DNA from: Henricia sp. BOLD:AAB3569
Lineage: Eukaryota > Echinodermata > Asteroidea > Spinulosida > Echinasteridae
DNA: 64,000 bases
Assembly: GCA_037783545.1 (NCBI GenBank)
Contig: JBBELK010000515.1
Location: 310,001 to 374,000, forward strand
Direction of reading: 5' to 3'
The notes under the pieces were generated by a model. That model saw nothing but the letters and a program-made list of their open reading frames with translations, searched no databases and was not told where the DNA came from. Both the position numbers and the translations under genes were made by a program. Positions 434 through 32,500 of this stretch are shown piece by piece (positions within the stretch are counted from its first letter, which is position 1; each line of letters opens with the position of its first letter).

Positions 434-3400
434 GTGATGGTACACAAATATAACATGGTTTGAGGATGGCCAGTCGATATTGGCTCCCTGAGGTACAAAT
501 GTATAGACCATTCCCAGGACGCCTTTCCTGTACACGTCCGCCATAGCTGGGATGCAGTTTTTTCCAGTGCATGGACTGTGCGTTTTGCGTTGTTAAATTG
601 AACAGTGCGCATCCATGACGCGCGCAACGCGTCATGGATGACATTTTTTGGTGCGGGGTCAAAATCACATGCGGGCGCTGACGAGAAACTAGTAATCTAA
701 TTTCATTGGCCTTATACATAGTATACAATACTGCTTGTAGTTCGTTTTTGGGTAGATATATTTTTTGGAAGTGGGGTTTTCCACAGTAAAGGGGGAATTT
801 TGGCAACACAGACCATATTTTCGAGGAAATACCTTTGTTTGGTCTCAAAATAAACGAAATAAGTTTAAATTGTTCTGAAGAGGTAACTCGGGCCCCAAAA
901 AGGTTTACAAATAGTGTGACAACATGCCTTTCTAAAAACCCTGTGTACAAATTTCCAATATATGCTCATAACCGGGACGGACACTTGTGTTACATGTTAG
1001 GCCGTCCCGGTTAGTAGCCGTGGCCAGACGAGTGTAGCACACTGTTCTCGTACTAATTGCATGCCTTATTTACTCTAAACTGTATCTATACCCAGCATGC
1101 TAATTGCCAGCTACTGTGCACAGCCAGTCCAGTGTACAGAGATCAGTGAGCCATTTGTTTGCTTGTGCATGTTTTCTCCAATTTTGATTTGCTTTGCATA
1201 CTTTGTTTTGCTCTCCTGCTTAAACTAACCCATGTCAATATATGTATAGAGACTGAGTGCACAGCTGCATGAAACGAGTGTTGATGATCCCACTGTAGCT
1301 CCTACCACGCCAACTAGCACTGCTAACACTAGCCAGCCCCCTTGGGTTCAAGAGATGCGGTCACGGTCTTTAAAGAGACCCAAGTCTGTTGCTACATCAT
1401 CTCAGGTGATGGTACACAAATATAACATGGTTTGAGGATTGCCAGTCAATATTGGCTCCCCGAGGTACAAATGTATAAACCATTCCCAGGACGCCTTCCC
1501 TGTACACGTCCGCCATAGCTGGTATGCAGTTTTTTCCAGTGCATGAACTGTGCGTTTTGCGTTGTTAAATCGAACAGTGCGCATCCATGACGCGCGCAAT
1601 GCACTCTTCGCACAGACAGACTCACACTGAGTCTCTTTGCGCGTGATTGCCTCGCGCGACACTTTGAGAAAAAGCGGTGTGGAAGCGGTTTATGTGAATG
1701 CACTGAAAATCACTGAATTATGAAAACACTTTTCGTCCAAGCTAATTCTGTGGAAGGAATTTGGGGTGAAACAACGCACCAAAAACCACAGAATTAACCT
1801 GGACATGTTGAACGGAAAGTGTCTTCATAATTCAGTGATTTTCAGTGCATCGTTTTACTCAAAATTCCCTCCACATCGCTTTTTCTTAAAGCGACGTGTG
1901 CCGCAATTACACGCGTGCTGCTATCTACACGCGTGCTGCAATTACACGCGTGCCGCAATAACACACGTGCCGCAATTACACGCGTGCAAAAAGCTCAGTG
2001 TGAATTCACCATCACAACAAACGCGCAAATTGTTCGAAGTGACGACACAGTGAGCATCATCACATAATGCATGTAGTTCATAAACTGACCACGTCCCAGC
2101 TATGGCGGACATACAGGGACGGTTTCCATGGGAAAGGTCTGTTGAAAGTTGACAAACTACATGTAGTTCCCGAGACGAAAACAGAGGGAACTAGTTTGTC
2201 AACTCCCAATACCAAAGGGGAGATAATATCGACTAGCCACCCGAAAATGGAAAAAAACCATGGTATATTTGTTTTACCTTGCCTCATACATATTTTTAAG
2301 TTCAGAAACACAGAGTGCAGGAAAACGATTGGTAAAATTTTCATTCAGCTTGTGTGCGCGTTGCACCCATGCAGTGCTGTCACCCGCTGCATCCGACCTC
2401 TCCGTAAAGCGTGTGCATACAGGTAGTAAACTGTTAATCGACTAGAGGATAGTTTACTACGCTTTAGCATTTGTGTGCTGGTAAACAGCAAATTGAAATA
2501 ACCACAGGCACGGGATGGGGAATGGGCCAATCGGAACGAGACTCTCCTTTATGAATATGTATGAGGTATGGTAATTCCCCCTATTCACGGTGATAAATTC
2601 AAACAAAATTTGCAATAGCGAGGATTGAATTTGAGAGAAGGTGATTTAGTTTGCGTTTGGGAGAACGGATGTTAATTCGGGTATTCTTTTGCCCTTAAGC
2701 CAAATCACCGTCCCTCATCAGTTGCCTTTTTTGCTGCAATATGATTCGAACCAGCCATTCAACACCGGCCGGCTTGGTGGTCGAGTGGTTAAGACATCTG
2801 CCTATAGACCGATCCAGTAAGCTCCGCCCATTTAGAAATTGCCTAGCAACATGCCACACATGTAAGGCACGTGTGCAGTAGAGTCGCGTGGCCGCGCCGT
2901 GCGTCAGCGTCCGCGCCCTGGTCAGCGCGTATTGAAACACGCACACGCACACAGAAACTGCACGCTCGAAAGCAAAATGTGCACTTAAGTATCCGGTCGT
3001 GTGCGTGCACGTACAACACGCCTGCATTACGCGTAACGTGCGCGATCGAACAAAAACATATCCCGACACACATCTAGAACGCAGTGAATGCACAACATAG
3101 CAAAACGACAAGCTATTTTTTGTGAGTTTTTCCCGTTTACACAAAAACACATTTATGAAGGGATTAAAAGTAGGTTAGGATAGTCCTATACAATCCGTTT
3201 TAAACCGGCTAGGGTCCTCTGCGCTGATAAAAATGATGTTTATGGTGTTTTTGCGTCACTCGTGCTGCATTTCGCCGTAGCTCTGTGCACACAATTTTGA
3301 GGACTCGGGTAACCAAAATGGAGATCCACCTCAACCTGAGGCTGTGATTGGTCAATTCCAAAATGGGCGGAGCTTACTGGATCGGTCTATTATGCAGGAG

Positions 3401-6400: not shown

Positions 6401-7691
6401 TGAACTATGATGCGAATGGTCAAGCAATACATGTAGTACTATTTTAATTTGTGCAGGGACATGGTTGAACTAATCTATGTCGCGTGAACTATTTTTAAAC
6501 CAATCGCTGAACGAGAATCAATTTATGAGGTACATAATAAATTATACCACCCCACTCCGACCAGGCTCACGTTAGCTTCTTTTAACCACAGAAACTATTA
6601 TGGGATGTGTCTCAGTGGTCTTGTTAAGCTTGTCCCACCCAATCGTCCCGTCGGCCACACCCTATTTTTCAGCTAAGAGCCTCGTCCATTCTGCAAATAG
6701 GGTGTGTATCTTTTCGAAATCAAATATTTATCAAAGAAAACACACCCTTTGACACACAACACACACAACTAAGCACGTGCGCGTGATTCGATTAGCCTAA
6801 CACACTGTGGCTTGCTCGCATAAATATTGAGCCTCCACCCTCTGGGGTTGTAAGCGCAGCGGCCCTACTCGGGCAAGGTATGGAGCGCGGTGAAATTCGT
6901 GGCACAAATTTGTTCGTGGTTTATTGACGAGCCTCTGTCTTTAAAGATAGTATACATGATTGGTAAACTGTTACAAATATTTTTATCCCCCTGTGTGATT
7001 GAAGATATGCATGATTAAAACCAACCTGAGCAAAAACCAGCTCCGTACTTTGTCTAACTTTTGAGAAAACAGTCAAAAAAGGGTTTGCAGTCATTTCACC
7101 CTAAAACCACTTCGCCCTGAACCATTTCGCCCTGAACCACGGCCGTGTGCACGAAGTGGTTTTGGGGCGAAGTGGCATTTGGGCGATGTAGTGTTTGGAC
7201 GAAGTAATTTTGGGCGAAGTGGTTTGGGGCAAAATGGTTTTGGGGCGAATTTAATTTTCGTCTCATGAGACGAAAACTAATTGTTTTACTCATTTCTCAA
7301 AGACTAGCACTTCAGACAAAACCATTTCAGGGGAAGTTTTCTACGGTCATCATGTTTATATTGTGTAAGTCGGGCGTAAATCTGTGAACATTTCTGATTT
7401 TCGAGATTACCAATGATGTATACTGCCTTTAAGGCTTGCAAATTTGTCCCTCTCTGACCACCACTACCACAATCACAGCGAGACGACTTCATCAACATTC
7501 CCTGTTCTTTTCTTCAGATCGAAGATCTTAAGAAGGAAATGAAAGTCCTTCAAGACCAAATGGCGACTGTCAAGTCAGACTGCAAGAAGAACGTCATGAA
7601 CCTGACGAACGAATTGGACGAAGAGAAGAAACTAAGAGTGGCCATGCAGGTGGAACTAGACCGCATCAAAAAACTTGTCTTTGACAAGTAA
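278..7691 (+). CDS. SH3KBP1: CIN85/CD2AP-family adaptor, 3' part of gene (joined exons)
   Basis: Partial gene entering from the left edge; visible coding exons are 278-433, 1250-1405, 5280-5501 and 7518-7691, all phase 0 at every junction. The family are SH3 adaptors that link receptors, endocytosis and cortical actin. Visible parts are a Ser/Thr/Pro-rich linker with basic RPK motifs (LKRPKS, APPRPKS), the kind of sequence that binds SH3 domains, and a C-terminal coiled coil of about 57 residues containing NELDEEKK, which resembles the CIN85 C-terminus (SELDEEKK). The SH3 domains would lie upstream of the window. The assignment rests mainly on the last exon and on exon layout; whether it is closer to SH3KBP1 or CD2AP cannot be told, since invertebrates often have one ancestral copy. 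The duplicated exon (278-433 and 1250-1405) may be used together or as alternatives. Confidence 0.72.
628..972. other. Unassigned spacer between the two duplication copies
   Basis: This stretch is present only between the two copies. I see no exon, no convincing inverted repeat and no similarity to the other families in the window. Minus-strand open frames run across it but have no recognisable content. Confidence 0.4.
1250..1405 (+). CDS. CIN85/CD2AP-like exon, duplicated copy 2
   Basis: Second copy of the 278-433 exon, exactly 972 bp downstream, with the same splice signals and phase. Two base differences were seen: a silent ACA/ACG threonine codon and GCT to CCT (Ala to Pro in QPAW/QPPW). 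Intact reading frame in both copies argues for a recent duplication or for both being kept. Confidence 0.6.
1478..2140. mobile_element. Inverted-repeat element with nested hairpin
   Basis: The left end (GTCCGCCATAGCTGG near 1508-1522) faces its reverse complement CCAGCTATGGCGGAC near 2097-2111. Inside lies a second palindrome at 1699-1849 with about 37-base arms (TGCACTGAAAATCACTGAAT and its complement). No coding capacity is seen, which suggests a nested MITE. Confidence 0.5.
1901..1987. repeat. Short tandem repeat, 17-18 bp unit
   Basis: About five imperfect copies of ACACGCGTGCYGCAATT. The units are CpG-rich with an ACGCGT core. The array lies inside the element at 1478-2140. Confidence 0.8.
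2149..2460. repeat. Two small hairpins in an intron
   Basis: At 2149-2203 GTTGACAAACTACATGTAGT is followed by a matching complement ending in TAGTTTGTCAAC. At 2424-2460 GTAGTAAACTGTTAAT faces ATAGTTTACTAC. Otherwise nothing is recognised between 2140 and 2690. Confidence 0.6.
2769..3440 (+). mobile_element. tRNA-derived SINE interrupted by a MITE
   Basis: The head GGCTTGGTGGTCGAGTGGTT (2770-2789) is a pol III A-box region of tRNA-Ser/Leu type. The B-box side (GGAGGTTGTGGGTTTCAGTT) resumes at about 3397. An uninterrupted relative lies at 9217-9300 and another at 48030-48096. Joining the halves across the MITE at 2804-3390 restores the order seen in those copies. The cloverleaf is imperfect, so it is a SINE head and not a working tRNA. 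Confidence 0.75.
2804..3390. mobile_element. MITE, about 587 bp, inserted in a tRNA-SINE
   Basis: Terminal inverted repeats of about 30 bp: ATAGACCGATCCAGTAAGCT at the left and its reverse complement at the right, followed by GGGCGGAG/CTCCGCCC. TA dinucleotides flank the ends, as for Tc1/mariner-like insertions. The middle is rich in CACGC/GTGCG motifs. Open frames on both strands here are products of that low-complexity sequence and have no recognisable domain. Confidence 0.75.
3819..4681. mobile_element. Mariner-like MITE, 863 bp, TA target duplication
   Basis: Left end CAGGGTGTATCAGAAAAAGT and right end ACTTTTTTCTGATACACCCTG, bounded by TA on both sides. CAGGGTG...AAAAAGT termini are typical of mariner/IS630 elements. 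No intact transposase frame is seen, so it is non-autonomous. It lies inside a tRNA-like monomer, splitting TTTA from GCTCACCTGG. Confidence 0.85.
4745..4985. mobile_element. Foldback MITE, 241 bp
   Basis: Nearly palindromic over its full length. ATAGACGGATCCGGTAGCTA at the left faces TAGCTACTGGATTCGTCTAT at the right, and CCATAGCGAGGGGCCATCCA faces its complement further in. It shares the ATAGACNG terminus with the elements at 2804-3390 and 5004-5153. Confidence 0.85.
5004..5153. mobile_element. Foldback MITE, 150 bp
   Basis: Arms of about 37 bp (TATAGACCGTATCCAATAGC, then TGCCATCTTGTAGG) with only one or two mismatches. It lies 18 bases after the previous foldback element, within the remains of the same tRNA-like array. 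Confidence 0.9.
5280..5501 (+). CDS. CIN85/CD2AP-like proline-rich exon
   Basis: Exon of 74 codons between ttgcag (acceptor, ends 5279) and CAG|GTATTA (donor at 5502), phase 0 at both ends. It encodes VPGPVENGPAVAPPRPKSSP followed by Pro/Ser/Thr-rich sequence with an imperfect repeat (TTRPVSLATSRPASLAT). APPRPKS is a plausible SH3-domain ligand. GC content is higher than in the flanking introns. Confidence 0.7.
5532..5641. mobile_element. Foldback MITE, 110 bp, abutting a TTAA element
   Basis: GTGATGGTGCAAGCTAATGC and GTGATCTTGAGACAGTA face imperfect complements (ACTGTCTCAAAATCACC and TTTGCACCATCAC) around an 18-base loop. It lies 31 bases downstream of the splice donor of the proline-rich exon. 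Confidence 0.8.
5641..6165. mobile_element. TTAAAGGCCC element, copy 1 (525 bp)
   Basis: Starts TTAAAGGCCCTGTAGATGAT and ends ATGATACACTGGGCCTTTAA, with TTAA at both ends. Close copies are at 39715-40187 and, inverted, at 54591-55124. No transposase is visible. The TTAA target resembles that of piggyBac elements. Confidence 0.85.
6941..7432 (-). mobile_element. TTAAAG element with TTCGCCC repeats, copy 1
   Basis: Ends are TTAAAGATAGTATACATGAT and ATGATGTATACTGCCTTTAA, flanked by TTAA. The interior has several CACTTCGCCCTGAACCA-like units followed by the same units inverted. Other copies are at 13038-13473, 41555-42080 and 53692-54213; this one is in opposite orientation to them. Confidence 0.85.
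7518..7691 (+). CDS. CIN85/CD2AP-like last exon, C-terminal coiled coil
   Basis: Acceptor ttcttcag ends at 7517 and the stop TAA is 7689-7691. The 57 residues form one amphipathic coiled coil (IEDLKKEMKVLQDQM, then NLTNELDEEKKLRVAMQVEL) ending in DRIKKLVFDK. CIN85 and CD2AP end in such a coiled coil, which mediates oligomerisation. The LDEEKK-(K/I)R pattern followed by a short DIKK-like tail is what points to CIN85. The exon is preceded by a TTAA-flanked transposon that ends 85 bases upstream. Confidence 0.82.
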   Translation: MEDLKKEMKVLQDQMATVKSDCKKNVMNLTNELDEEKKLRVAMQVELDRIKKLVFDK

Positions 7692-12169: not shown

Positions 12170-12309
12170 TTAAAGGCACAGGCTCGTCAGCAATGCGCCC
12201 GCGCCAAATTCGTGCCACGAAATACGCAGCTCCATACCTTGTATAGAGCTGCGTATTTCAAGGCACGAATTTGGCGCGCACGCATTGCTGACGAGCCTGT
12301 GCCTTTTAA
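12170..12309. mobile_element. TTAAAGGCACAGG foldback MITE, copy 1
   Basis: A near-perfect hairpin of about 140 bp. AGGCACAGGCTCGTCAGCAA is mirrored at the other end, and CCAAATTCGTGCCACGAAAT inside. TTAA is at both ends. Copies 2-5 are at 34709-34851, 36898-37038, 47627-47767 and 48213-48352. Confidence 0.92.
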
Positions 12310-13037: not shown

Positions 13038-13473
13038 TTAAAGGCAGTACATCATTGGTAATCTCGAAAATCAGAAATGTTCACAGATTTACATCTAACT
13101 TACACAATATGAACATGATGACCGTAGAAAACTTCCCCTGAAATAGTTTTGTCTGAAGTGCTATAGTCTTTGAGAAATTATAGTAAAACAATTAGTTTTC
13201 GTATCATGAGATGAAAATTCAATTCGCCCCAAAACCATTTCGCCCAAATGCCACTTCACCCCAAAACCACTTCGTGGTTCAGGGCGAAATGGTTCAGGGC
13301 GAAGTGGTTTTGGGGCGAAATGACTACAAACCCTTTTTTGACTGTTTTCTCAAAAGTTAGACGAAGTACGGAGCTGGTTTTTGCTCAGGTTGGTTTTAAT
13401 CATGCATATCTTCAATCACACAGGGGGATAAAACTATTTGTAACAGTTTACCAATCATGTATACTATCTTTAA
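13038..13473 (+). mobile_element. TTAAAG element with TTCGCCC repeats, copy 2
   Basis: TTAAAGGCAGTACATCATTG at the left and CAATCATGTATACTATCTTTAA at the right. This copy has the fewest internal CACTTCG units. A partial second right end (TAAAGATAG, then CCTACATGATTGGTAAACTG) follows directly. Confidence 0.82.
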
Positions 13474-14149
13474 AGATAGAGTTGGCCTACATGATTGGTA
13501 AACTGTTTATAAAAGCGTTATTTCCACTCGTGATTAAAAGCCTATGTTGATAAAAACTGCCTTGTAGAAATTTCAGCCATATAGATGCAGTAATCCTTCA
13601 AAACCTGACAAATACATATATATGTTTTTGTGTTGAGTTAATGATGAATGGTGAAAAAGTCGTCTGCAGACAATTTTTCACGGGGAAAAAAATCATGTGG
13701 TGTTTGTATCAACACTTTAGGTTGGGTTTTTCTTGTCAACTTTTGGTAATGGCAAATGATGTATTGGGGCATTACCCACGCACACTTGTGCTGTAGTAGT
13801 TGCACGTACAAGCGTAAAATAATCAATTTATTTCTCTGAAATAGACACATTACTCAAATATGTATTTTGCTGTGGTTTTCGCTGACGCCACCTAGCCCAG
13901 GTTGGACGTCGTCTTCATTGCATTACGAGTGACGTCCAGGTCACGATGTCTCTAAACAGGGGGACTGAAACTTGCACATAAATGTTTGAGCTATTTTACC
14001 TTTTAGTGGACGTCGAATTGATGTCCGTATATCCTTTGCGTCTTCAGTTACAGGAACGGAAGGTTTAATTGTCGTATATACCAAATTTGATGAACAAAAT
14101 AGTGAAATCTAAGGCACAACATAACGTTAAAGTTCAGAGAAAGAAATAA

Positions 14150-14315
14150 CAGCTGCCGTCGCGTCACGCATCGTGAAGTTTGGATAGGCTTGCGCGTGCG
14201 GCGTCACGATTTCAGGCACGCAATGCGCCGAGGCCATGGCCCAGTTCAGTTGCGACGCGCGCACAGCCGGCCGCGCCGGCACGCGGACGCGGGACTAGAC
14301 TACGCGCGCGGTGAG
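14150..14315. other. CpG-dense patch upstream of TIMM13
   Basis: Roughly 165 bp with many CpG, CGCGCG and GCGTCACG motifs (GCCGTCGCGTCACGCATCGT at the start) in an otherwise AT-rich region. It begins about 870 bp before the TIMM13 ATG. It could be a promoter element or part of a repeat; no transcript evidence is available. Confidence 0.35.
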
Positions 14316-15023
14316 AACAAAATAAGCTGAACGTAACTTGGCTGTAGTAGGCCTAGTGGATTATTTGTGCACAAATATATAGCAAATTAGCGTGACTTTT
14401 TGCCGTTTTCCTCCGGAATATGCAGTTCGGTGATGTGTAGTGGATTTCTAAACCCGGCAATCCCAAAGATTAGGACACATGGAACTTTGTTAGCACATTA
14501 CTGGCTTCCTGCACAAGGTAGAAATATTGATTTTTTTGGTTACAAAAATTTTCACCCTGTTTTTGGAACTTCATATTCTGTATCCCCATGTAGTACAGTA
14601 TGCGGTACAGAGTCCAACCTGGGCTAGCTAGACGCCACCCACCACGCCCTCTCTCCGCTATATGCTGCCACATATCAGACCGAGTGACTCTCCTCCTGCC
14701 GCCCCCATACCTCAACACACTATTCCCTTTTGTTAACGTACGACTCCCTCCCCCTAAAACCTGAAAGGAAATTCCTTGGATGTTTTACACACAATAGGGG
14801 AACAATGGAAGGGGAAGTCACTCAGTCTCATATCTTGCACCAAATGTACTTTTGTCTGGACTGGTTCCCAGTCTATGTGGAACATGTGGACAGGAAAACC
14901 AGTCTAAGGTTGGCGATATTCAATATAGAGAGGGCGCAATACTAGTGCACATGTTCAGCGGTAGAGTTTCGACAGAGCTCAGCCCCAAAGTTTTCGTAGT
15001 TTTCCCTTAAAAATACCCTAGCA

Positions 15024-15149
15024 ATGGACGGCTTTTCGTCCTCGCCGGCCCCGGCAGGCGGCAACAAGTTAGACAGTGCTCAGAGGGGGCAGATTATGGA
15101 TCAAGTTAAGACGCAGATTGCTTTAGCCAATGCACAGGAACTTCTTCAG
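15024..15149 (+). CDS. TIMM13: TIMM13 exon 1
   Basis: 42 codons, [13 protein letters not shown] to NAQELLQ, donor CAG|GTAGGA. Positions 2-16 are a flexible Ser/Ala/Gly segment; the helix with [13 protein letters not shown] follows. The large palindrome begins 13 bases after the donor. Confidence 0.97.
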
Positions 15150-18100
15150 GTAGGACTGCTGATACTTCCAAATACTGAAAGCCGTCCAGATCAAACTGTA
15201 CGGCTTTCAAGAGCAGCATTTTTCCCCCCATCAAAACCGTTGGCAAAATGGAATCTTTAGTTTACTCATTTTACAGGAAATTGCTATTTTTGGTAAAATA
15301 TGAATCTCCACACGTTCTACATACCTCCCTGGCTGAAATTGTCTGAATAGTGGCGTACATTCGTCCGTAAAACCCGAATCTTTCAGGAGCAATCATACCG
15401 CATGACTTGTAGAATTTTTCCCCTTTTCAAGATGGCGGATGTAGACTCGGCGCAGTCGTTCTTTCGGCCACCAGCACGTACTAGCACGGTACAGACAAGG
15501 GGGGCGCTGTTCACATTTATTCGCTCTTGCCTGTGGGCATGTACCGTTCCGCCGGCCGGCGCTCCGCTGGCGAATCCACAGTCACTGACGCGAGTACACG
15601 TTAAAAATGTGATATATTTCCTCATGGCTTGCATCTCTGAATTGTTTATATATTTTTGTAAATTGATAGTTAGAAAACCTACAAGCTGTTTAATTATCGA
15701 CCAATTACTCTCAAAATGATTGTCCATGTATGACAATTGCGTTGTTTACACGTTGCCAATGTCTCTCAACTACGAATGAAGTATGATTTTTTCTTCAGCA
15801 ATTCCGTTAGATGACGAAAAATATTGCCACCCAACTCCCCTTCCCTCCCTCCCAATTAAACAAATTGTAAAACAAAAATCAGAAAGGACTCGATAAGAAC
15901 CACAGAACCTCTCGAAACTATACAATTCCAGGCGCCTATAGCTTTTGAGTAAGGATGCCGCCAACTTTTTTAAGCACCTGCAGCCGATTTCACGAAGCAT
16001 TGCGCAGCTTGCGCAACTTTTGACAAATGGCGCAAGCTTCATAGCCTGCGTGTTATCTTCGGAAGAATGTTGCGCAACTTACGCAATAAAATGTTGCGCA
16101 AGTGGGTTTACGCAGTGCGTTATGATTCGTGAAATCGGCTGCAGGTGCTTAAAAAAGTTGGCGGCATCCTTACTCAAAAGCTATAGGCGCCTGGAATTGT
16201 ATAGTTTCGAGAGGTTCTGTGGTTCTTATCGAGTCCTTTCTGATTTTTGTTTTACAATTTGTTTAATTGGGAGGGAGGGAAGGGGAGTTGGGTGGCAATA
16301 TTTTTCGTCATCTAACGGAATTGCTGAAGAAAAAATCATACTTCATTCGTAGTTGAGAGACATTGGCAACGTGTAAACAACGCAATTGTCATACATGGAC
16401 AATCATTTTGAGAGTAATTGGTCGATAATTAAACAGCTTGTAGGTTTTCTAACTAACTATCAATTTACAAAAATATATAAACAATTCAGAGATGCAAGCC
16501 ATGAGGAAATATATCACATTTTTAACGTGTACTCGCGTCAGTGACTGTGGATTCGCCAGCGGAGCGCCGGCCGGCGGAACGGTACATGCCCACAGGCAAG
16601 AGCGAATAAATGTGAACAGCGCCCCCCTTGTCTGTACCGTGCTAGTACGTGCTGGTGGCCGAAAGAACGACTGCGCCGAGTCTACATCCGCCATCTTGAA
16701 AAGGGGAAAAATTCTACAAGTCATGCGGTATGATTGCTCCTGAAAGATTCGGGTTTTACGGACGAATGTACGCCACTATTCAGACAATTTCAGCCAGGGA
16801 GGTATGTAGAACGTGTGGAGATTCATATTTTACCAAAAATAGCAATTTCCTGTAAAATGAGTAAACTAAAGATTCCATTTTGCCAACGGTTTTGATGGGG
16901 GGAAAAATGCTGCTCTTGAAAGCCGTACAGTTTGATCTGGACGGCTTTCAGTATTTGGAAGTAGGACTGCTGACTGTTGTGCTGGTCAACTCGGTCCCAA
17001 TGTAGCGGTCGCTAGTAGTAACACCCACTTTACTAATGGAACAGTCCACCTTGTTTGCCCTTTATGTTAATAAGGTTCTAGGTGAGATAGCAAAGCATGC
17101 TGGGATAGTCTTGTTGTTGTTGCCAAGATGGCTGAAGTGAACCACGATGTTAAATAAACCAATGTTCCAATCTGTGTTTTAATCGTTACAAATTCGCATT
17201 TGGATTCCTGTTTGTGTGCCTGAGCAATCTTATAGTAACGAAGATCCCGTTACACTGGCGTAGTCGGCAGGATTAGCACTAAGGACCCGCGATTTTTGTG
17301 GATTATATCGGATTGTACTCACCATTTTTTATCGTCAACGTCAACCAATCCCGATCACGTCGCATCGGAAAACTTTGTATAAACATCTCGGATTACTAAA
17401 GGCCTCGCCCAAGTCAGTAATTTATTTTTTTTGAACGAGAAAATCTTCTCTCACGTTGTCATATACAAACTTTTGAAGCCAAAGTAAATGTGGACCTCGG
17501 TTATTTGTTACACAGTTTAGTGACCGCCCTTCGTGTCCGTCGACTGCGGTAAGCCACGCCCACTTCGTACATGTGCCTTCATGATTGTGTGGTTTTGACA
17601 ATTTTTGTTATCTCCTACAAGTCCATGGTCTAAGTAGTAAGTTGCTAACAATGTCACTGTCAGATGCTAGTAGAGCCGTATACTTACGCAGGTTCACTGC
17701 TGAGCATATTTGTAGATTATGCAACTTAAACAACATAGACACCGCCAAAGTAAAAACCAAAGACGAACGAATCACATGTTTGTGTGAACTACCGCAACTC
17801 GTAGAAGACTCTACTCATGCTGCAACTGAATTTCTGTATAGCAGACTGTGAATATTGTTGCGAAACGTGTAAGCAGAAATCATGAACATGATGAATTGTC
17901 GACTTTCGCGGTGGTATCCTCCCTACCCTAGGATAGTGGCTGCCGTCAAGTGACGTCATTGCTGTTGCATGAACTGTATACCGTAACATTTTCATCTATG
18001 TTGAGTGACTTTCCACATTTTGTATGACTGTGACCTTTGTAAACCAAGATGGCTGACCGATCAACCCCTGAGTCGGCTCACAGCCTAGTATATTACCGTA

Positions 18101-21100
18101 TGTATCATTGTGTATATTGCCAAGTTGTGTGACACCAAGACGAAGCACGAGCCTTTCACCATGACCCATTCCTGCCCAATAACACTTGTTGACAGTGTGG
18201 GGGGAAGCTGCACCGGTCCCCATGTCGAGGCAGTCTTAGTTTAACGGCCGTGCCCGCGTCGCTGCCTTATTGGACACCGGATCCAGTTCTTCCCTCATCG
18301 CAAGTGAGCGGTATGAAAAGCTTCAACTTTCTGTCGTTATTAGAGGAATGCCACAATCCGTTCGGCAGCTGTCTGTATCAATCCAAAGGATGAACTTGAA
18401 GATTGGATACTATGCGACGAATGCGACTTGTGGTACATGTACCACCAGAAAAATGTCCACATCCTAAAGAAAAGTTCAGTGTGGGGAATAGCTGCACCGG
18501 TCCCCATGTCGAGGCAGTCTTTAACGGCCGCGTCCGCGTCGCTGCCTTATTGGACACCGGATCCAGTTCTTCCCTCATTGCAAAAGAGCTGTATGAATTA
18601 AGGCATGGACCCTATGTCATTCGCGAACTGTTAACTGGTGTGAACCTTAAACTTGCAAACTTGCAGAACCCTAAGAAAACCATCATTGTTCATGTTGGCC
18701 AGATCAAACCACTCACAGTGTGAGCCCCTTTAATGACTGTACACAAGACACATTGTACATGTTTGTTTTTCAAGTGTTTTAACATGTATTATAACATGTA
18801 ACATAATGTTGCTTATTCTTTAGTAGACTAAGATGAGTCTCTAACTCGGTGTTTTAGATGTTCAAGCCAAAAATGTGATTTTATACTTTATTGAACATTA
18901 TGATCCACATACTGATTTTATGCTAAATGAACATTTAAACTTGTGTAACCTGCTGGACGGTTTACAAAAAAAGATCACTGGATTTTGCCAGCAAATACAA
19001 AGATATTGATGTAGAAAAAGGACTTAAGTCAGCCAATATTTTTTTTTTCAGTTGAAAAGGTGAATACAATTGAACTGTACATGTGTGTATTTAATCTTGA
19101 TACATTTCATAAGTGAAACTTGCTTGGTAAATGTTTTCAGGTTTTTCTTAAAGAAGTTATTTAAATCACTCCCAGACCTACATGTATTCCACAACTTTGA
19201 GACACAGTCTAGGAGGGGGGAGTGTAGCGGTCGCTAGTAGTAACACCCACTTTACTAATGGAACAGTCCACCTTGTTTGCCCTTTATGTTAATAAGGTTC
19301 TAGGTGAGATAGCAAAGCATGCTGGGATAGTCTTGTTGTTGTTGCCAAGATGGCTGAAGTGAACCACGATGTTAAATAAACCAATGTTCCAATCTGTGTT
19401 TTAATCGTTACAAATTCGCATTTGGATTCCTGTTTGTGTGCCTGAGCAATCTTATAGTAACGAAGATCCCGTTACACCAAGTCAACATGGTCAACTTGGT
19501 CCCAAACCAACTCGGTCCCAGGTCAACTCGGTCCCAAACCAAATCGGTCTCAGGAATTGTTTCCGTATACATTGAACAAAGATTTGAAGGAAATTACCTC
19601 CAGGAATCGACAGATAATCTAATTTTAATATAGGCCTAAGCTAGGCCTACTTCCCACTTGCACTTTTGGGTGTTTTGTTAGTTTGTGTCAACTGGAATTT
19701 GACGAAAGTAATTATTGGAATCGATAGCTTGGATGATTTTAGAATATGAATATTTACATACATTTCCGTCGCAAAGACTTAGTTTTAGAGAAAAATCACG
19801 GAAAAAATATTGCATATGATTGCACGCAAAGCGGCCGGCCAGAAACCAAACGGATCATCACGCGCACGCCCTATTTCTTCGCGGGCCTCACACACTGCTC
19901 GGCTGGCAGCAGTTTCACACTCTTTTGTATGGAAGCGGGCGTGACAAAAACACAATTTTCATGGAAATGCAACTTTTGCGACGGAAATGTCAATGAAAAA
20001 GGTATTTCAAAATCATCCAAGCTATCGATTCCAATTATTATTTTCCTTAAATTTAAGATTTTGTAAGTTAACACTTTTCAGCCTGTCTCGTATGTTTTGC
20101 ACACAAGGTCTAAAGCCATGATCAACTTCCCAATTCTTTCCGAATCTTCGAATAAAAAATTGCGTCCAACGTTATTTTTCTTTATATTTTTCCTGTAAAC
20201 TTGTCAGCACTGCAGCATTGAAATTATTGAAATTGTCAGAGGATAGGCTCAAGAGCCAACCAGCATATAGCATAGACTAGTATGACGTCATGCCTAATCA
20301 CTAAATTTCAACTAAAGTTTACCAGAAAAATCCTTTAAAAAAATAACATTGGATGAGTTTTTTTTATTGTTTAGAAGATTCATTGGGAAAAACCAATCAT
20401 TGCACAGAATTCTTGAGAGAAGAACGACCTCCATGGTATGTTTTTCAAAGTATGATTTTGACCAACGTTAGATTTCTGACAAGTATAATAAAGTGACTAA
20501 GGTACAAAATCTAACACTGATGCGATGGTCAACGGGTATTTTTTTGCGAAGGACGTAAAGTGACGTTTTCCTGTCCAAAAGTTAACATAAAAGAGTCACT
20601 TTTAGCCTTCTTAAAGTAAACTTTTTGTATGTTTAACTTTTGCACCCCTTAGAGAATGACTGACAAGTGTTTCAAGAAATGCGTCAACAAACCCGGTACT
20701 TCGCTGGATTCCTCTGAACAGGTAACCATTAAACCACACCCAGTTTTACCCAAATGTGTTTGCTGCAAATGGGTTAGTCAAATTGAAATGATCTATTTAT
20801 TTCCCCGTTGCATTACATACATCTGGACTGCAATTAGTCTTTGTCAGATCCGCTGAATATTCGTAGCACCATTCGCTGGCAGAGTCGTGACGTTACATTG
20901 TGGGTGCTTGACCGTAACTATGGTTACTGGTTCACGCTGACTTTTTACATCCATTGTGTTTGCGCACAGTGCATTTTATTATTATTCTTTTAGAAGAAAA
21001 TATTTAAAAATAAGGACCATAATGACTTGCTCTACTCTCATAGCAATAGTACCATACCGCCTTATTTTGTGATCTTTGTAACAGAAAAACTCAACAGAAA

Positions 21101-24156: not shown

Positions 24157-24660
24157 GCAGGGAAACAGTTCACTGGTTTTATTGTAGACCTGGTAACCTT
24201 GACAACATAAACACCTAAGATGGCATTTTCACGTTAGTACATTTGTAATGTATTATACAATATATGATTAAGGGGGGAAATTCCTCATCCTATACATGAA
24301 CCCTCTAAAACGTTCCCCAGAATTAATCTGCTTGTCCATTATTACGTGAGCTATTAACATCGCCCTCGCCTATGAAAATATTTTTCAAGATTTCAAAAGG
24401 TCATTTCCTTTTTCAAATATACTTTTGACCGTTTTGTTTGTAAGCGCCTTTAGTTTTAATCACATAATTTCATTTTTTTTGTAAAGCCTGATTAAACCTT
24501 GAGAATTAAAAATGTGATGAAACAAAGTTCCCTTGTGATTGATTTAACTAATTTAAAAATCGTCCACTTGAAATGGACTACTACAGTGAAAATGTCACCC
24601 TTTGTGTGTTGCCATGGTTTTTGGGTCTACACTAAAACCAGTGAACTGTTTCCCTGCCTT
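24157..24660. mobile_element. Inverted-repeat element ending at the minisatellite
   Basis: GCAGGGAAACAGTTCACTGG then TTTTATTGTAG is mirrored by CTACACTAAAA and CCAGTGAACTGTTTCCCTGC. The right terminus overlaps the first unit (CTGCCTTCGAGTCCC) of the 28-bp tandem array. Fragments with the same end lie near 43585 and 50938. Confidence 0.75.
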
Positions 24661-25170
24661 CGAGTCCCAAGTCAAGTCAAACTGCCTTCGAGTCCGAAGT
24701 CAAGCTGCCTTCAAGTCCCAAGTCAAGTCAAACTGCCTTCGAGTCCCAAGTCAAGTCAAACTGCCTTCGAGTCCGAAGTCAAGCTGCCTTCAAGTCCCAA
24801 GTCAAGTCAAACTGCTTTTCGAGTCCCAATTCAAGTCAAACTGCCTTCGAGTCCCAAGTCAAGTCAAGCTGCCTTCTAGTCCCAAGTCAAGTCAAGCTGC
24901 CTTCGAGTCCCAAGTCAAGTCAAACTGCCTTCGAGTCCGAAGTCAAGCTGCATTCGAGTCACAAGTCAAGTCAAGCTGCCTTCAAGTCCCAAGTCAAGTC
25001 AAGCTGCCTTCGAGTCCCAATTCAAGTCAAACTCCTTCGAGTCCCAAGTCAAGTCAAGCTGCCTTCGAGTACCAATTCAAGTCAAACTCCTTCGAGTCCC
25101 AATTCAAGTCAAACTCCTTCGAGTCCCAAGTCAAGTCAAGTCAAACTGCCTTCGAGTCCTAAGTCAAGTC
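24654..25170 (+). repeat. Minisatellite array 1, 28-bp unit
   Basis: About 18 imperfect copies of CTGCCTTCGAGTCCCAAGTC followed by AAGTCAAA. Some units lose 9-17 bases. The regular spacing gives long open frames on the + strand (repeats of [11 protein letters not shown]), which are an artefact of the array. Confidence 0.95.
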
Positions 25171-26389
25171 AAGTCACGTCAGCCATATTGGCCAAGATTG
25201 GTCAAGCTAATTTCAAAATGAGTGTAAACGCTGAAACTCACATTCGTGTTGCTCTGGCCATGGTTTATGTAGTGCTTAAATACAATTCGGTCCCCGAAAT
25301 GAAGGGAAAAAAAATTGCATAAAAGATCTAATATATATTTTTGGCAGACTCAAGTCAAAAAGTCTGAGTCAAGTCAAGTCATTTGAGGTTCGAGTCTCAA
25401 GCATGTCAAGTCGGCGAAAATCTGTACTCGACTCGACTCCAGTCTCGAGTCCGCGAGTACGTCCCTGTTCAATAACTGTCAAATAATAGACCATGGAGGA
25501 TGAATAGAACCACAAAGCGTTTCTACTCAGCCATAAGACGCGGTTGCAGTGTGATAGCCTGGCCGCCGCCCAAACCAAGATAATTTGCATAATCTTGTTT
25601 TAGAAGATCGAAGCGCTTTTAATTATGTAACCTTTGACCTTATTACTAAATCAAATTTATGCAAGATAACGTGCCCTCAAGCGCATTACCACCCCGCCCA
25701 CTTTGCAGATTGCCTTGTTATAACCGAAACCTTGTATTATCAGGATATTACGAAGACCCAGAGGGGACATTTAAGTATTTTATTTTTTTATTTTTTTAAT
25801 ACGTACGTACGTGATAATAATACGTACGTACGTGATAATGAAAACAACGAAAAACAATGGATTGGGGCGTCAAATAAAGTTTCAAGATAAGCTAGCAGAA
25901 TGTCGTACTAACAGTGTTCGTTTTATCGAGGTTTTGCCGTTAGTACATTGGACGGATGGGGTGAATAAACTTTTACTTGTCACCTCACGTGCGGTGTTTA
26001 CAAAGTGCCGTTGCCAAGACGACAGACAACAACTGAAACATGAACTTCGCCATGTTGTGCCCGTCCGCGGAAAAATAGTCCCATAATTTCGTTTTGTTTC
26101 TTCATTTTGGAGCTTCTATTTCGCACAAATTATTTATAAAATGCATAGGTACAAAGTTTTGAGTATTTAGAAAGGTTTTCGAGCAAAGTTAAGGTTTATT
26201 TTGTTAGAATTTAATGATCTATATTTCGCGGAATAATCCATTAACTAATTGATTGGTAGTGAATCGGTCTTGATAACAGAACCCCGGGGACGTGAGAAGG
26301 GGTGTTTCGCGAAGAAACTAAACTCTTTATCCTAAGTTTTTAACGAATTTGTGACCGAGATTGTCTCGGCATTACATCGGTGCGTAAGT

Positions 26390-26522: not shown

Positions 26523-29500
26523 GTACGTAAAGCCAGTGGCGGACAATTATTGTTTAAAGGGGCACATCGTCCAGGAAATTCCCGAAAAAAATTTTGTACA
26601 AATATTCCCATATTTAATCGAAGTCTTAACGTTGCAAGGGCCTGACCGCTTGAAACTCGATCAAGACAAAAGTTAGGAAACAATAGGTCGACATGGTCGA
26701 GGGGTATCCTGCAGTCATCTAAATTCACGCACATGTAATTTCACGCGCGGACGCTCTCCTTGGCGTATCTTTTCACTGAGATCACGCAGTGACGTCAGAT
26801 TTTTCTTGAAAGTTGTTGGTCTCACTATCTTTCATTTTGCACAAAAATATGGGAAATCAAAGCCTTCCCGGTAAGTAATTGAATAAATTTTAATAAAGGG
26901 TACAAAATCCTACTTTCTAGACAAGGTACAAATATACTACAGCCAAAATGGTCGGAGAAATCCTTTAAAATACACAAAAACTTTCACCACTGACCGCCTA
27001 CTCTGTCTCTAGGCACTAAATGACAATATTGATTAGGTTAAACTTTTTAACAGAGGGCGCCTTGAAAGGTACGGAGCTAAAAAAAAGACACCCGTCTTAT
27101 AGCTTTTCAATTCGAAATTATACTGCTTAAGAAATTTCAGTCAATCATAATAATTTACTTATAATTTACAATTTCGTGTTTTTTTCTCATTCCACAAGGG
27201 AGACAGACCGAGAGAATAAAAATAATAAAACATGATAAAAAAAGAAAAAAACAGAAGGCTTCACATTAAAATGAAATCAACGGCAATATAGCCCATTCCG
27301 CCCTCCATTAGTCAACTTCACTGCTGGTTTTGGTAATAGATGTCCCAGAAAAAGCGTGCAGTTTATATGACTTAATCATCTCCAAAACTCAAATAATCTT
27401 TCAATTATGTCCTTAAGTAATGTACTGGATCATAGTTATTAGAAAGCACTTCTTGTAGAAGCATAATTTTCAGATACTGGGCACAACTGGGACACCGTAG
27501 TGTGACATGTGACTAGCTGCGCCAATTTACATGACGTAACTTTAGCAAGTCTACTTTTACATGCGTTTGCAAAAACAAAGCTGGCGTCGTACGGCGATGT
27601 TGCTCTTTCTTGAAATTTTACTCCCAGGTAGGGTTGGACATAAGGAATCTGACAAAGGAGCCTAAAGGTTCTTTTTGGCTGCTTTATTGTGGTCAAAACA
27701 GTGATAAAGGCTTATGTGCGTGAAATATCATGACTCGAGGATACAGCAGCCGTATCACGAAACTTTACGCAATTGCGCAAGTCCACTTACGCCAAAAATG
27801 ATTGCGCAACTTGCGCAATAATTTGCTGCGCATTTTACGAAAGTTGCGCCACATTTGGATATGGCGCAACTCGTCGACTTACGCCATAAAATGTGGCGTA
27901 ACTTGCGCAATGGTTTTTGGTGGCGTAAGTTTTTAAAATGTGTCGTAGGACAGTGAAAAATGGCGATAAAGCAGCTCGCTACACATGCTCGCTACCGCAT
28001 CGTCAACGAATTGAACCAAGGCCTTCCGTTAGTAGAAAACGGCCTTTTATCATAGTGAAATCTGCGACGCGACGCATGATGACCGAGCGACATGAGCGAT
28101 GGCACCCATGATAACAGTGGAAAATTTGTGGAAAACAACGACGTATGTTTTATGTATGACTATTTTATCAAGGGCAAACATCAAATAGTCGTTGATAAAC
28201 TAGAAATTATCCTTGTCCTAGAAGTTACAAGCGCTAAAGTGAAAAAATTAACGTTGCGCAGCTAAGGAGAGTTTCGTGAAATCGATCTTGGGTTTATTGC
28301 GCAGCTACGCCATAAAGTTATGGCGTAAGTCTTACGCCATGCCCATGGCGCAAGTTGCGCAATGTTTCGTGAAATTGGCTGCTGGATTGCGGGGGAGGGG
28401 CCAGAATGGAGGGAGGTGGATAAGGGGATGTGGGAGGAAAGGGGAGGGGAAACAAACGTGACATAAAAATCTTCACTTGTTTTCAAAGAAAAACTTGTAG
28501 GCTAATTCTCACTGCTGAAATCATGTTTCCTCAGTAAATTTTCTCTTTTTCGGGCAATAGGGAGGTTTCGGTGTGCACGGTTAGTGATTACGACTACGAT
28601 TAGCCAAACCTCAAAATCGTTACCTTTCGCTGTCCGTTTTTCACTAAGGTGTAGAGGAGTTGCTATCAGTGTAGACAACAAAACAACACTTGGGATATTT
28701 GTGTAAACGCCACAAGTACGCACAAATCGATGACGTAAAATTCACTAATAGTCGTCGTTTTGCCTAACCGTATGCGACCTAAACCTCCTTATTATCATGT
28801 AATATTAAAGAATTAGTGACGAAAGTGAGCAAAGCGTAGGTAAAGTAAGGTAAAAATCATGCATGTAATTACAAGCCGGAGTGCCCATCTCTCTTTCATT
28901 AGTGAGGGGTGTGCGGCTAGCCCCATTCTGTGGCCAAATACTACGCAGGCTCCGTATGTTTGGCAACAGGGGCGTACATATAGACCTTTCGCAAACAACT
29001 CCAACCTCGAGTGCTTTTAAACTACACAGTTTCAGAAGCCATAACTCACACTATTGTTGCCTTAAGCCCGCCGCACACCTTTGCGATTTACCGGCTCATC
29101 GGACACCGGACCATCGGATCCGGAAAAATCAAACAAGTTTGATTTGCTCCGGTCTATGGTGTGCGGTCAAACCGGCCCGAATTGTTTCAGCGCACACCTT
29201 TCCGGTAAGTGGTCCGGTGATCCGATTATCCGGTAAATCGCAAAGGTGTGCGGCGGGCTTAACCTTATACCCTAAAAAGATACGCATTAGGTAGGGTATC
29301 GTACGATGCCTACTTCCCGGGAAAACACAGCGGGTACTGCACAAGCATGTTGACACTTGCAACGCGCATGCACAATACCGTCGGTGCGTACAGTACTCGA
29401 TGCATGAAGCGCTGCACGGAAAAGGTGAAAATTGGGTGGAATTCCCGCTGTATTTTCTCTGTGAAGGGAAAATGTTGGTGTAATTACTGCACTGCTTTAT

Positions 29501-32500
29501 GGAACCGGATGAATTAGCTTATCGGTGGTTTTTTGACGATATCCTTGAAAATATACGGATTGAGAACACAAAATTTCACAATGGTAATGAGAAAAATATG
29601 ACAATTGATATGGTATCTCAACACCCATGAGAAAATCTCAACACCCATGAGAAAAATGGGGGCTTCAAAAAAGTGATGTGGACACGTTCCTTTAATTGGA
29701 ATTTTTTCAGAAAAAAAGAATTCAGTGCCAGGTTGACCTATGTTTTATGTTAGAACCATCTCTAATCTGATATTTTGTTCTCTATTTTTAAAGCTGACGA
29801 TAAGAAAGATGAACCAAAGAAAAAACCAGTCCCACCTGAAGCCGCTGCTGAAAAGCGCAGACGAGGGCCACCGCCTCCGGTAAGAAAAAAAAAGACCACA
29901 AGGTCCGCTTTCAAAGTTGTCACCAAAAAAAACCTTCCGATTTATTGGATGATAAAATATCAGTCATGCTTATAATTTCATGGCTCCAAACTTTCAAAAG
30001 GGCATTTCACACTTTACAAATGACTTGACTCGACTTGAGACTCGAAGGCAATTTGACTTGACTTGGGACTCAAAGGCAGTTTAACTTGACTTGGGACTTG
30101 AAGGCAGTTTGACTTGACTCAAAGTGGGACTCGAAGGCAGTTTAGCTTGACTTGGGACTCGAAGGCAGTTTGACTTGACGACCCGAAGGCGGTTTGACCT
30201 GACTTGGGACTCGAAGGCAGTTTTACTTGACTTGAAACTTAAAGGCAGTTTGACTTGACTTGGGACCCGAAGGCAGTTTGACTTGACTTGAAACTTAAAG
30301 GCAGTTTTACTTGACTTGGAACTCAAAGGCAGTTTGACTTGACTTGGGACTCGAATGCAGTTTGACTTGACTTGAAACTTAAAGGCAGTTTGACTTGACT
30401 TGGGACCCGAAGGCAGTTTGACTTGACTTGAGACTCGAAGGCAGTTTTACTTGACTTGGAACTCAAAGGCAGTTTGACTTGACTTGGGACACGAATGCAG
30501 TTTGACTTGACTTGAGACTCGACTTGAGACTCAAAGGCAGTTTGACTTGACTTGGAACTCGAAGGCAGTTTGACTTGACTTGGGACTCGAAGGCAGTTTG
30601 ACTTGACTTGGAACTCAAAGGCAGTTTTACTTGAGTTGAGACTCGAAGGCAGTTTTACTTGACTTGGAACTCAAAGGCAGTTTGACTTGACTTGGGACTC
30701 GAATGCAGTTTGACTTGACTTGAGACTCGACTTGAGACTCAAAGGCAGTTTGACTTGACTTGGAACTCGAAGGCAGTTTGACTTGACTTGGGACCCAAAG
30801 GCAGTTTGACTTGACTTGAGACTCGAAGGCAGTTTGACTTGACTTGGAACTCAAAGGCAGTTTGACTTGAGTTGACACTCAAAGGCAGTTTGACTTGACT
30901 TGGGACTCAAAGGCAGTTTGACTTGACTTGGGACTCAAAGGCAATTTGACTTGACTTGGAACTCGAAGGCAGTTTGACTTGACTTTGACACTCGAAGACA
31001 GTTTGACCTGACTTGAGACTCGAAGGCAGTTTGACTTGACTTGGAACTCAAAGGCAGTTTGACTTGACTTGGGACTCAAAGGCAGTTTGACTTGGGACTC
31101 AAAGGCAGTTTGACTTGAGATTCAAAGGCAGTTTGACTTGAGATTCAAAGGCAGTTTGACTTGGGACTCAAAGGCAGTTTGACTTGGGACTCAAAGGCAG
31201 TTTGACTTGACTTGAGATTCAAAGGCAGTTTGACTTGACTTGAGACCCAAAGGCAGTTTGACTTGACTTGGGACTCGAAGGCAGTTTAACTTGACTTTGA
31301 CACTCGAAGGCAGTTTGACCTGACTTGAGACTCGAAGACAGTTTGACTTGACTTCAGGCCCGAAATCAGTTTGACTTGACTTGGGACTTAAAGGCAGTTT
31401 GATTTGACTTGAGACTCGAATGCAGTTTGACTTGACTTAAAACTGAACAAAGGGAGACTCGTTTCAACCCTGCTTGCAAATTACGAACGATTGTGTCAAT
31501 TTCAATGTTAATTTCAACCTGTCTGTCTGTTGCGACACACCATCCATTCTCCACTCAAAATTCTCACAAACACTGATTTTGTCTTTACACCAGCTTAACA
31601 CACAGAAAGGAACTTCGGTAAGTATTAAAAAAGACAGCCTGTAAAGTTTGTGTGCATTACTAACAAGCTTCAGTTTTCAGATGTACATGTATTCAAATAT
31701 AAACTCTCACCAGACCCAACTGTATTTTTATCTTTCTATGGAAAGTGTTCATGTTTAGTGCAAAGGTTGTAGCTGTCAGTAGCTATTGTAACTAAACTCC
31801 TCAAAAAAGGTTCAGAAAGTCAAGTTTGACTGACCATTTCTCTCTTGTTGCAAAATAATTTTCCTTGGGTTTTATATCATTGGAAAGCCTGTTATTCTTC
31901 TTTACGATGATGTGTCATTTGTTATGATTAAGCAATTGGAGGATGTGCAGTACAGCTGAATACAGGGGGCGGTTGGAAAGTGAAATGTCACAAAATGCAT
32001 TGCTATTGTCAAAAAGTGCATTGACACATTCCCATTCTCCAAGCAAAATGGGAATGCACTGCATGACAATATCAGTGAATTCTGTGACATTTCACTTTCC
32101 ACCCACCACTGTATTCTGCTATACTGCACATCCCCCAATTGATTAATAACAAATGACACATCACTGTAAAGAGGAATAACAGGGCTTTCCAATGATGCCA
32201 AATTCAAGGGAAATGATTTAGTAACAAGAGAGAAATCGTCAGTCAAACTTGACTTTGCGAACTTTTTTTGAGGAGTTTACCTGTACATGTAAATGAATTG
32301 AAACCATTAAACAAATAATATTTAAAATTTCAATAATTTAAAATTTAAAAAAAACAACAACATACCATATAATTCTGAGATGTTGGTGAGAATATTATAA
32401 ATATTTGTGATGTATTAAGCAAAGAATAATATCACAAAAATACACAACCACTGAACTGCTGAAATACAGAAAGTATTCATTAAATATTTCATTCTATAAA

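Follow-up and report, generated by a model that had tools for sequence, protein, structure and literature searches.

Long perfect palindromes are unstable. The arms of Drosophila FB elements proper are built of short tandem repeats. Target-site duplications measure 8-11 bp, typically 9 bp, in the Mutator superfamily and 8 bp in the P superfamily, while MITEs are short non-autonomous elements, usually under 600 bp. Two described systems come closest to the element studied here. Tm1 of Meloidogyne, placed in a Mutator/Foldback family, is described in the sections of its paper used here as generating duplications of 8-10 bp, mostly 9 bp, without a clear consensus (PMC3169594). For Galileo, a Drosophila element of the P superfamily, the authors propose that one repeat is repaired from the other, and the part of their Discussion used here records long palindromes in unrelated transposons (PMC3573991). 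Those same sections contain no arm-symmetry count of common variants for Galileo, and a text search of a second Galileo paper (PMC4168063) found neither conversion nor homogenization in the text covered. For foldback elements, little literature on snap-back or on conversion between arms was found beyond Galileo and Tm1, and the literal element end sequences had no match in the literature searched by text.

Self-alignment of the window (the whole stretch of 64,000 nucleotides that was analyzed) placed a palindrome of 1801 bp at 15163-16963. Its arms, 15163-16000 and 16122-16963, were aligned over 842 columns and are 100% identical apart from one 4-base gap (TAGT) and one mismatch, the latter lying three columns short of the centre-side end of the alignment, which confirms the near-perfect palindrome described in an earlier note on this DNA. 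A match of this length is not credibly attributed to chance. The range proposed earlier, 15151 to 16973, does contain the palindrome but also takes in the flanking repeat, and the element itself starts at 15163. Similarly, the 12-bp direct repeat that had been reported corresponds to a real flanking repeat, the longest form of which is 13 bp (GTAGGACTGCTGA, 15150-15162 and 16961-16973), but not to the duplication. The right copy begins with GTA, three bases that already belong to the end of the element, and, because the element ends are symmetric (TAC...GTA), the duplication is read as the 10 bp GGACTGCTGA. A 12-bp duplication was rejected, as it includes bases common to the element end and 10 bp suits the family. 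The features of the locus are as follows.

15024..15149, + strand: exon 1 coding sequence of a TIMM13-like gene, with the donor site at 15150
15153..15162, + strand: target-site duplication GGACTGCTGA, left copy
15163..16963, strand (.): foldback transposon copy, E type, TACTTCC...GGAAGTA
15163..16000, + strand: left arm, 838 bp
15176..15209, + strand, mirrored at 16917-16950: small subterminal hairpin TGAAAGCCGT..ACGGCTTTCA
15980..16142, + strand: 163-bp unit at the centre, bounded by inverted GCAGCCGATTTCACGAA ends, with free-standing relatives elsewhere
16122..16963, - strand: right arm, 842 bp, with one TAGT unit more than the left arm
16964..16973, + strand: target-site duplication GGACTGCTGA, right copy

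The element lies in intron 1 of a gene that we take, from the look of its exon peptides, to be TIMM13. The earlier gene reading holds, with exon 1 ending at 15149 (...NAQELLQ, followed by gt) and further exon-like stretches near 20656 and 22133. Within intron 1 the duplication begins at +4 and the element proper at +14, and a second GTAGGACTGC is present at 16961 because the element regenerates GTA at its right end. If transcribed with the intron, the palindrome might, as the earlier note proposed, fold into a very long hairpin RNA that could serve as a substrate for Dicer or ADAR. An empty TIMM13 site was not found in this assembly with a 30-letter query and up to 2 mismatches. At 15428-15441 the arm holds CAAGATGGCGGATG, which to our eye resembles a captured promoter or first-exon start and is a possible case of gene-fragment capture.

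Other repeats were observed in the window. The same intron carries identical 255-bp direct repeats (TGTAGCGG...GTTACAC) at 17001-17255 and 19223-19477 around ~2 kb that include an aspartic-protease-like stretch, with a possible 4-bp CCAA duplication; we assume the pair to belong to a young, short LTR-type element. A 28-bp minisatellite, CTGCCTTCGAGTCCCAAGTCAAGTCAAA, forms large arrays in inverted orientation at 24654-25172 and 30025-31438. A palindromic MITE-like family of ~140 bp with TTAAAGGCACAGGCT-like ends is found at 12170-12306, 34709-34851, 36898-37038, 47627-47767, and 48213-48352, and a repeat family of ~450-530 bp, with inverted TTAAAG-type ends and a TTCGCCCCAAAACCAC-type minisatellite inside, at 6933-7432, 13038-13474, 41554-42081, and 53687-54211.

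Further copies were sought in the window's own assembly (740.7 Mb, 2104 contigs). The left arm as query gave at least 46 genomic matches (40 of 1046 candidates scored), and 20 regions were taken, then 6 more, four of which overlapped the first set. A direct target-site duplication of 9-10 bp was present at 41 of the 44 places with both ends read, a count that leaves out L012, which has a single end, and the copies on contigs C104 and C147, which were read in part. The first duplication test covered 26 two-ended places and gave 22 exact 9-bp and 2 exact 10-bp duplications, the two misses being L018 and L034, which have no duplication directly at the element ends. Three copies of 1.7-1.8 kb (L069, C465, and C340) all carried a 9-bp duplication, their flanks being judged by eye, and among 15 other family members 14 were duplicated, L075 being the miss. 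At L024 a young copy is nested in an older one; removal of the young copy together with one 9-bp copy left a sequence that matches the older copy's opposite arm at 60/60 letters and therefore represents an exact empty site for the nested copy.

The 19-bp terminus TACTTCCAAATACTGAAAG, with at most 1 mismatch, occurred 1151 times (569 + 582) in the 740.7-Mb genome, while the reversed control gave 0. Among the termini listed (the first 100 places, on low-numbered contigs), 33 convergent pairs were paired by hand and ranged from 60 bp to ~3.8 kb, nine of these elements measuring 1.78-1.88 kb. The window palindrome is identified from these data as one copy of a young, multi-copy, mobile foldback transposon. 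This bears out the foldback transposition proposed in the earlier note, since many copies have common ends and different 9-10 bp duplications, and an exact empty site exists at another copy; the search it suggested, for copies with the same ends and different flanks, turned up such copies in the genome. The same observations make an assembly artefact unlikely.

The wider family proved to be diverse in its interiors. Over the outer ~200 bp, copy L013 (termed E) is 82-92% identical to L066, L067, L070, L072, L074, L077, L079, and L080, and shares shorter outer stretches at 74-84% with L071, L073, L075, and L078. Nine of the 15 members (L067, L068, L070, L072, L073, L074, L077, L079, and L080) are mirrored over most of their length, with arm identities of 84.7-100%, and in some of these the interior is unrelated to that of E, as in L067 (950 bp, arms 97.8%). 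The outer arms of L066, L071, L076, and L078 match over a smaller part only, L075 lacks matched outer arms, and L065 is interrupted; it is an E copy that holds a stretch reminiscent of a retrotransposon protein end. Smaller kin of 60, 269, and 424 bp exist, and the 60-bp elements L068 and L016e have duplications of their own. A separate observation concerns L016 (1280-3760), where an element lies within one arm of a host palindrome and a minimal element of 60 bp occupies the corresponding site of the other arm; the duplications of the two elements, CACTCACCC and GGGTGAGTG, are reverse complements.

The element has the features of foldback (FB-like) transposons, namely long inverted-repeat arms, a short centre, and mobility with target-site duplication. 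No tandem array of the kind seen in Drosophila FB proper was detected at 13322-19489 by Tandem Repeats Finder at default score. The duplications of 9-10 bp at 41/44 places are of Mutator-type length, for which reason placement in the Mutator superfamily appears likely, and they differ from the 7 or 8 bp of Galileo and the P superfamily. The E type, at ~1.8 kb, is too large for a MITE, while the kin of 60, 269, and 424 bp fit by size. The genome contains 19 matches to MULE (PF10551). At three of these 19 loci, with ~2.2-2.7 kb covered on each side, a flanking pair of element ends was not found around the MULE and matches to a 15-base end, at 4 mismatches or fewer, were no more than scattered. 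At L081 (1573-3995) a MULE-type reading frame lies between inverted arrays of GGTCGTTTCGTACCC units, an arrangement that we take to resemble Rehavkus-type elements.

The relationship between the two arms was studied in 24 intact E-type copies over arm positions 1-819. Copies with one end, with an interrupted or deleted arm, or only partly read were dropped (L012, L020/L033, L025/L034, L028, L065, C104, and C147), as was the old copy; because the 24 are mostly best matches to the window, the sample is biased toward young copies. In the first 17 copies, the tabulated variants included substitutions that several copies had in common and that sat on both arms. In the 24 copies, all 14 substitution sites common to more than one copy were on both arms in every carrier, while private sites were on both arms in 26 cases and on one arm in 25 (Fisher p 0.00045, the sites being not fully independent on the tree). 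The diverged copies L029a and L069 account for 22 of the 26 private two-armed sites; in the remaining 22 copies, 4 private sites are two-armed and 21 one-armed. The arms of a copy differ on average by 1.08 substitutions, as against 5.9 (median 3) between copies. Symmetric variants at 186, 247, 269, 629, and 662 mark different groups of E-type copies. Several indels were also two-armed, among them a 21-bp indel of C465 and another, at 384, carried by two copies. The TAGT unit is missing from one arm only in both the window copy (W) and L030, perhaps through recurrent slippage, and a 2-bp indel at 604 is one-armed in L024 and two-armed in its other carriers. Toward the centre, position 820 is one-armed in L014, L016, L019, and L021 and two-armed in L022, and positions 839-847 keep an inherited asymmetry. 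Together, the substitution patterns indicate that the two arms of E-type copies evolve together, with exceptions at the centre side, at two indels, and in close subfamily pairs.

Pairs of elements were compared by counting columns that differ on both arms against columns that differ within an element. For E and the old copy, both arms differ at 80 of 372 columns, against 5 columns within the old copy; the corresponding counts are 18 against 4 for E and L029a, 38 against 11 for E and L066, and 61 against 4 and 3 for L067 and L070. In close subfamily pairs the symmetry was not clear, with symmetric columns numbering 3 against 4 and 3 (L067/L072), 2 against 3 and 7 (L067/L079), 1 against 2 and 7 (L072/L079), 2 against 3 and 2 (L070/L074), 12 against 3 and 13 (L070/L080), and 12 against 2 and 11 (L074/L080). 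The counts for E and L067 (108 against 4) and for L077 and L070 (54 against 6 and 3) were set aside as evidence, because these pairs match only over the outer ~200-220 bp and unrelated interior columns were included. Symmetry in distant but not in close pairs makes homogenization look like a long-run property of the lineage, in which settled copies drift.

The 163-bp unit is present in the centres of 21/21 E copies (C465, C340, and L069 being outside this count), shortened to 139 bp in L023 and L026, and L029a has a shorter, diverged form. As had been noticed earlier, the centre carries the GCAGCCGATTTCACGAA terminus and TGCGCAA-like repeats and has relatives in the window at 27745-28384; a further related piece lies at 36246-36289. 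Relatives with GCAGCCGATTTCACGAA-like ends also stand alone, for example in L017, L020, and L025, with no clear duplication by eye, and it is plausible that the palindrome grew around, or captured, another element. Simple insertion of the unit into a finished palindrome was rejected, as the sequences on either side of the unit in the window copy are inverted and lack a direct duplication.

A probable footprint of copying was found in L018, where the order is GGGCGAAGC (921-929), TACTTCCA (930-937), a 465-bp tract (938-1402), the element (1403-3208), and again GGGCGAAGC. The 465-bp tract is an exact inverted copy of the sequence to the right of the element, and the outer 9-bp pair GGGCGAAGC is read as marking the original insertion. 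At the left arm-centre junction, GAAGCATTGCGCACTGCG, letters of the opposite side are joined at CGCA. This arrangement suggests that the left arm and the 465-bp tract were synthesized together, with the right side as template, in a single tract running from centre through arm into flank; the simplest reading is that the tract was then joined to a left-end remnant. L018 is the one clear overshoot into flank that was seen. L011 and L031b share a GCA-type centre junction unlike that of L018 and have different duplications, so a re-copied copy probably transposed again.

One interpretation of these data, which we consider rather probable, is that the element is a non-autonomous foldback DNA transposon whose palindrome is kept near perfect by re-copying of one arm from the other; copying of this kind may explain the near-perfect state of such palindromes. 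A transposase reading the ~20-bp end would presumably move the element in trans. An end would be cut during the transposition cycle, and repair, by snap-back or arm-templated synthesis starting in short inverted repeats of the TGCGCA-rich centre, would then copy outward along the arm that survives, so that the spreading copy would have matched arms. In L018, synthesis would have overrun the arm end by 465 bp of right flank before the join to the left-end remnant. The same route could mirror new interior DNA, so that members of one family would share their ends while differing in their palindromic interiors. The frequencies suggest that re-copying probably happens mostly in the transposition cycle, because common variants are two-armed in 14/14 cases and private ones one-armed in 21/25 in the less diverged copies. 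A stronger form, which we hold only tentatively, is that each transposition round renews one arm by centre-primed snap-back and also mirrors captured DNA, founding new foldback subfamilies; if so, almost only arm-symmetric variants would be inherited.

The alternatives have overlapping odds and are exclusive neither of each other nor of parts of this interpretation. It could be that the arms of resident copies undergo ordinary gene conversion, by cruciform or homologous recombination and unlinked to transposition. Such conversion of large inverted repeats has a precedent in the mammalian sex-chromosome palindromes described in the part of PMC8981503 used here, and would account for the symmetric variants and the weaker homogenization near the centre. 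However, 21 of the private mutations in 22 copies are still one-armed, against 4, while 14/14 common variants are symmetric, and resident copies therefore seem not to convert quickly; we regard this explanation as somewhat unlikely. Arms could also be equalized without break-copying, if a transposition intermediate snapped back as a single-strand hairpin or extruded cruciform and mismatches in the stem were repaired. This would explain why positions 1-819 are symmetric and why the last 20-30 bp next to the loop escape, but the flank overshoot of L018 and the centre microhomology junctions of L018 and L011/L031b are left unexplained, and this route is judged unlikely.

Another proposal, quite unlikely in our estimation, is that the founder of every subfamily was made anew by a single inverted duplication centred on the inverted-repeat unit, after which its arms only diverged. 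Subfamily interiors do differ and are mirrored in 9/15 members, junctions fall at short inverted repeats, and close pairs diverge as much between arms as between elements; the several symmetric variants that mark different copy groups within the E type (186, 247, 269, 629, and 662), however, call for repeated events. Palindromes are hard to assemble and the sampled copies are young, so arm likeness might merely reflect a very recent palindrome or a merger in assembly or polishing. Against this, the arms still match in copies that are old or diverged (E versus the old copy and versus L029a), on which ground plain youth was rejected as the cause of arm identity; the 25 one-armed private sites persisting in the same assembly led likewise to rejection of a merger of the arms, and the duplications at the ends differ between copies. 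Such an origin is very improbable.

The re-copying of one arm from the other remains the preferred reading. The family offers sequence evidence that the arms evolve as one unit, together with the footprint of a likely copying event. With 1151 ends in a single genome, it makes the origin and persistence of foldback elements testable. Members as short as 60 bp that have duplications of their own set bounds on the sequence that the transposase requires.

The comparison with known systems, limited to the sections of the cited papers used here, is as follows. The yeast foldback inversions (PMC7467729) are alike in forming an inverted duplication via a hairpin; they are chromosomal rearrangements, however, whereas a transposon family is involved here. 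Tm1 (PMC3169594) likewise has foldback-like inverted repeats, mostly 9-bp duplications, and MITE-like members, but its arms average 93.15% identity within an element, while those of young E copies are near 100%, and Tm1 has a known Phantom/Mutator-type transposase, while no transposase was linked to the present ends. Galileo (PMC3573991) resembles the present family in its long inverted repeats, 98-100% identical within a copy, in its 2-repeat elements of 1.7-2.2 kb, and in the recruitment of interior sequence into longer repeats. Note, however, that Galileo copies are bounded by 7-bp sequences, against 9-10 bp here, and that repeat extension in Galileo runs inward, whereas the L018 tract runs outward into the host flank.
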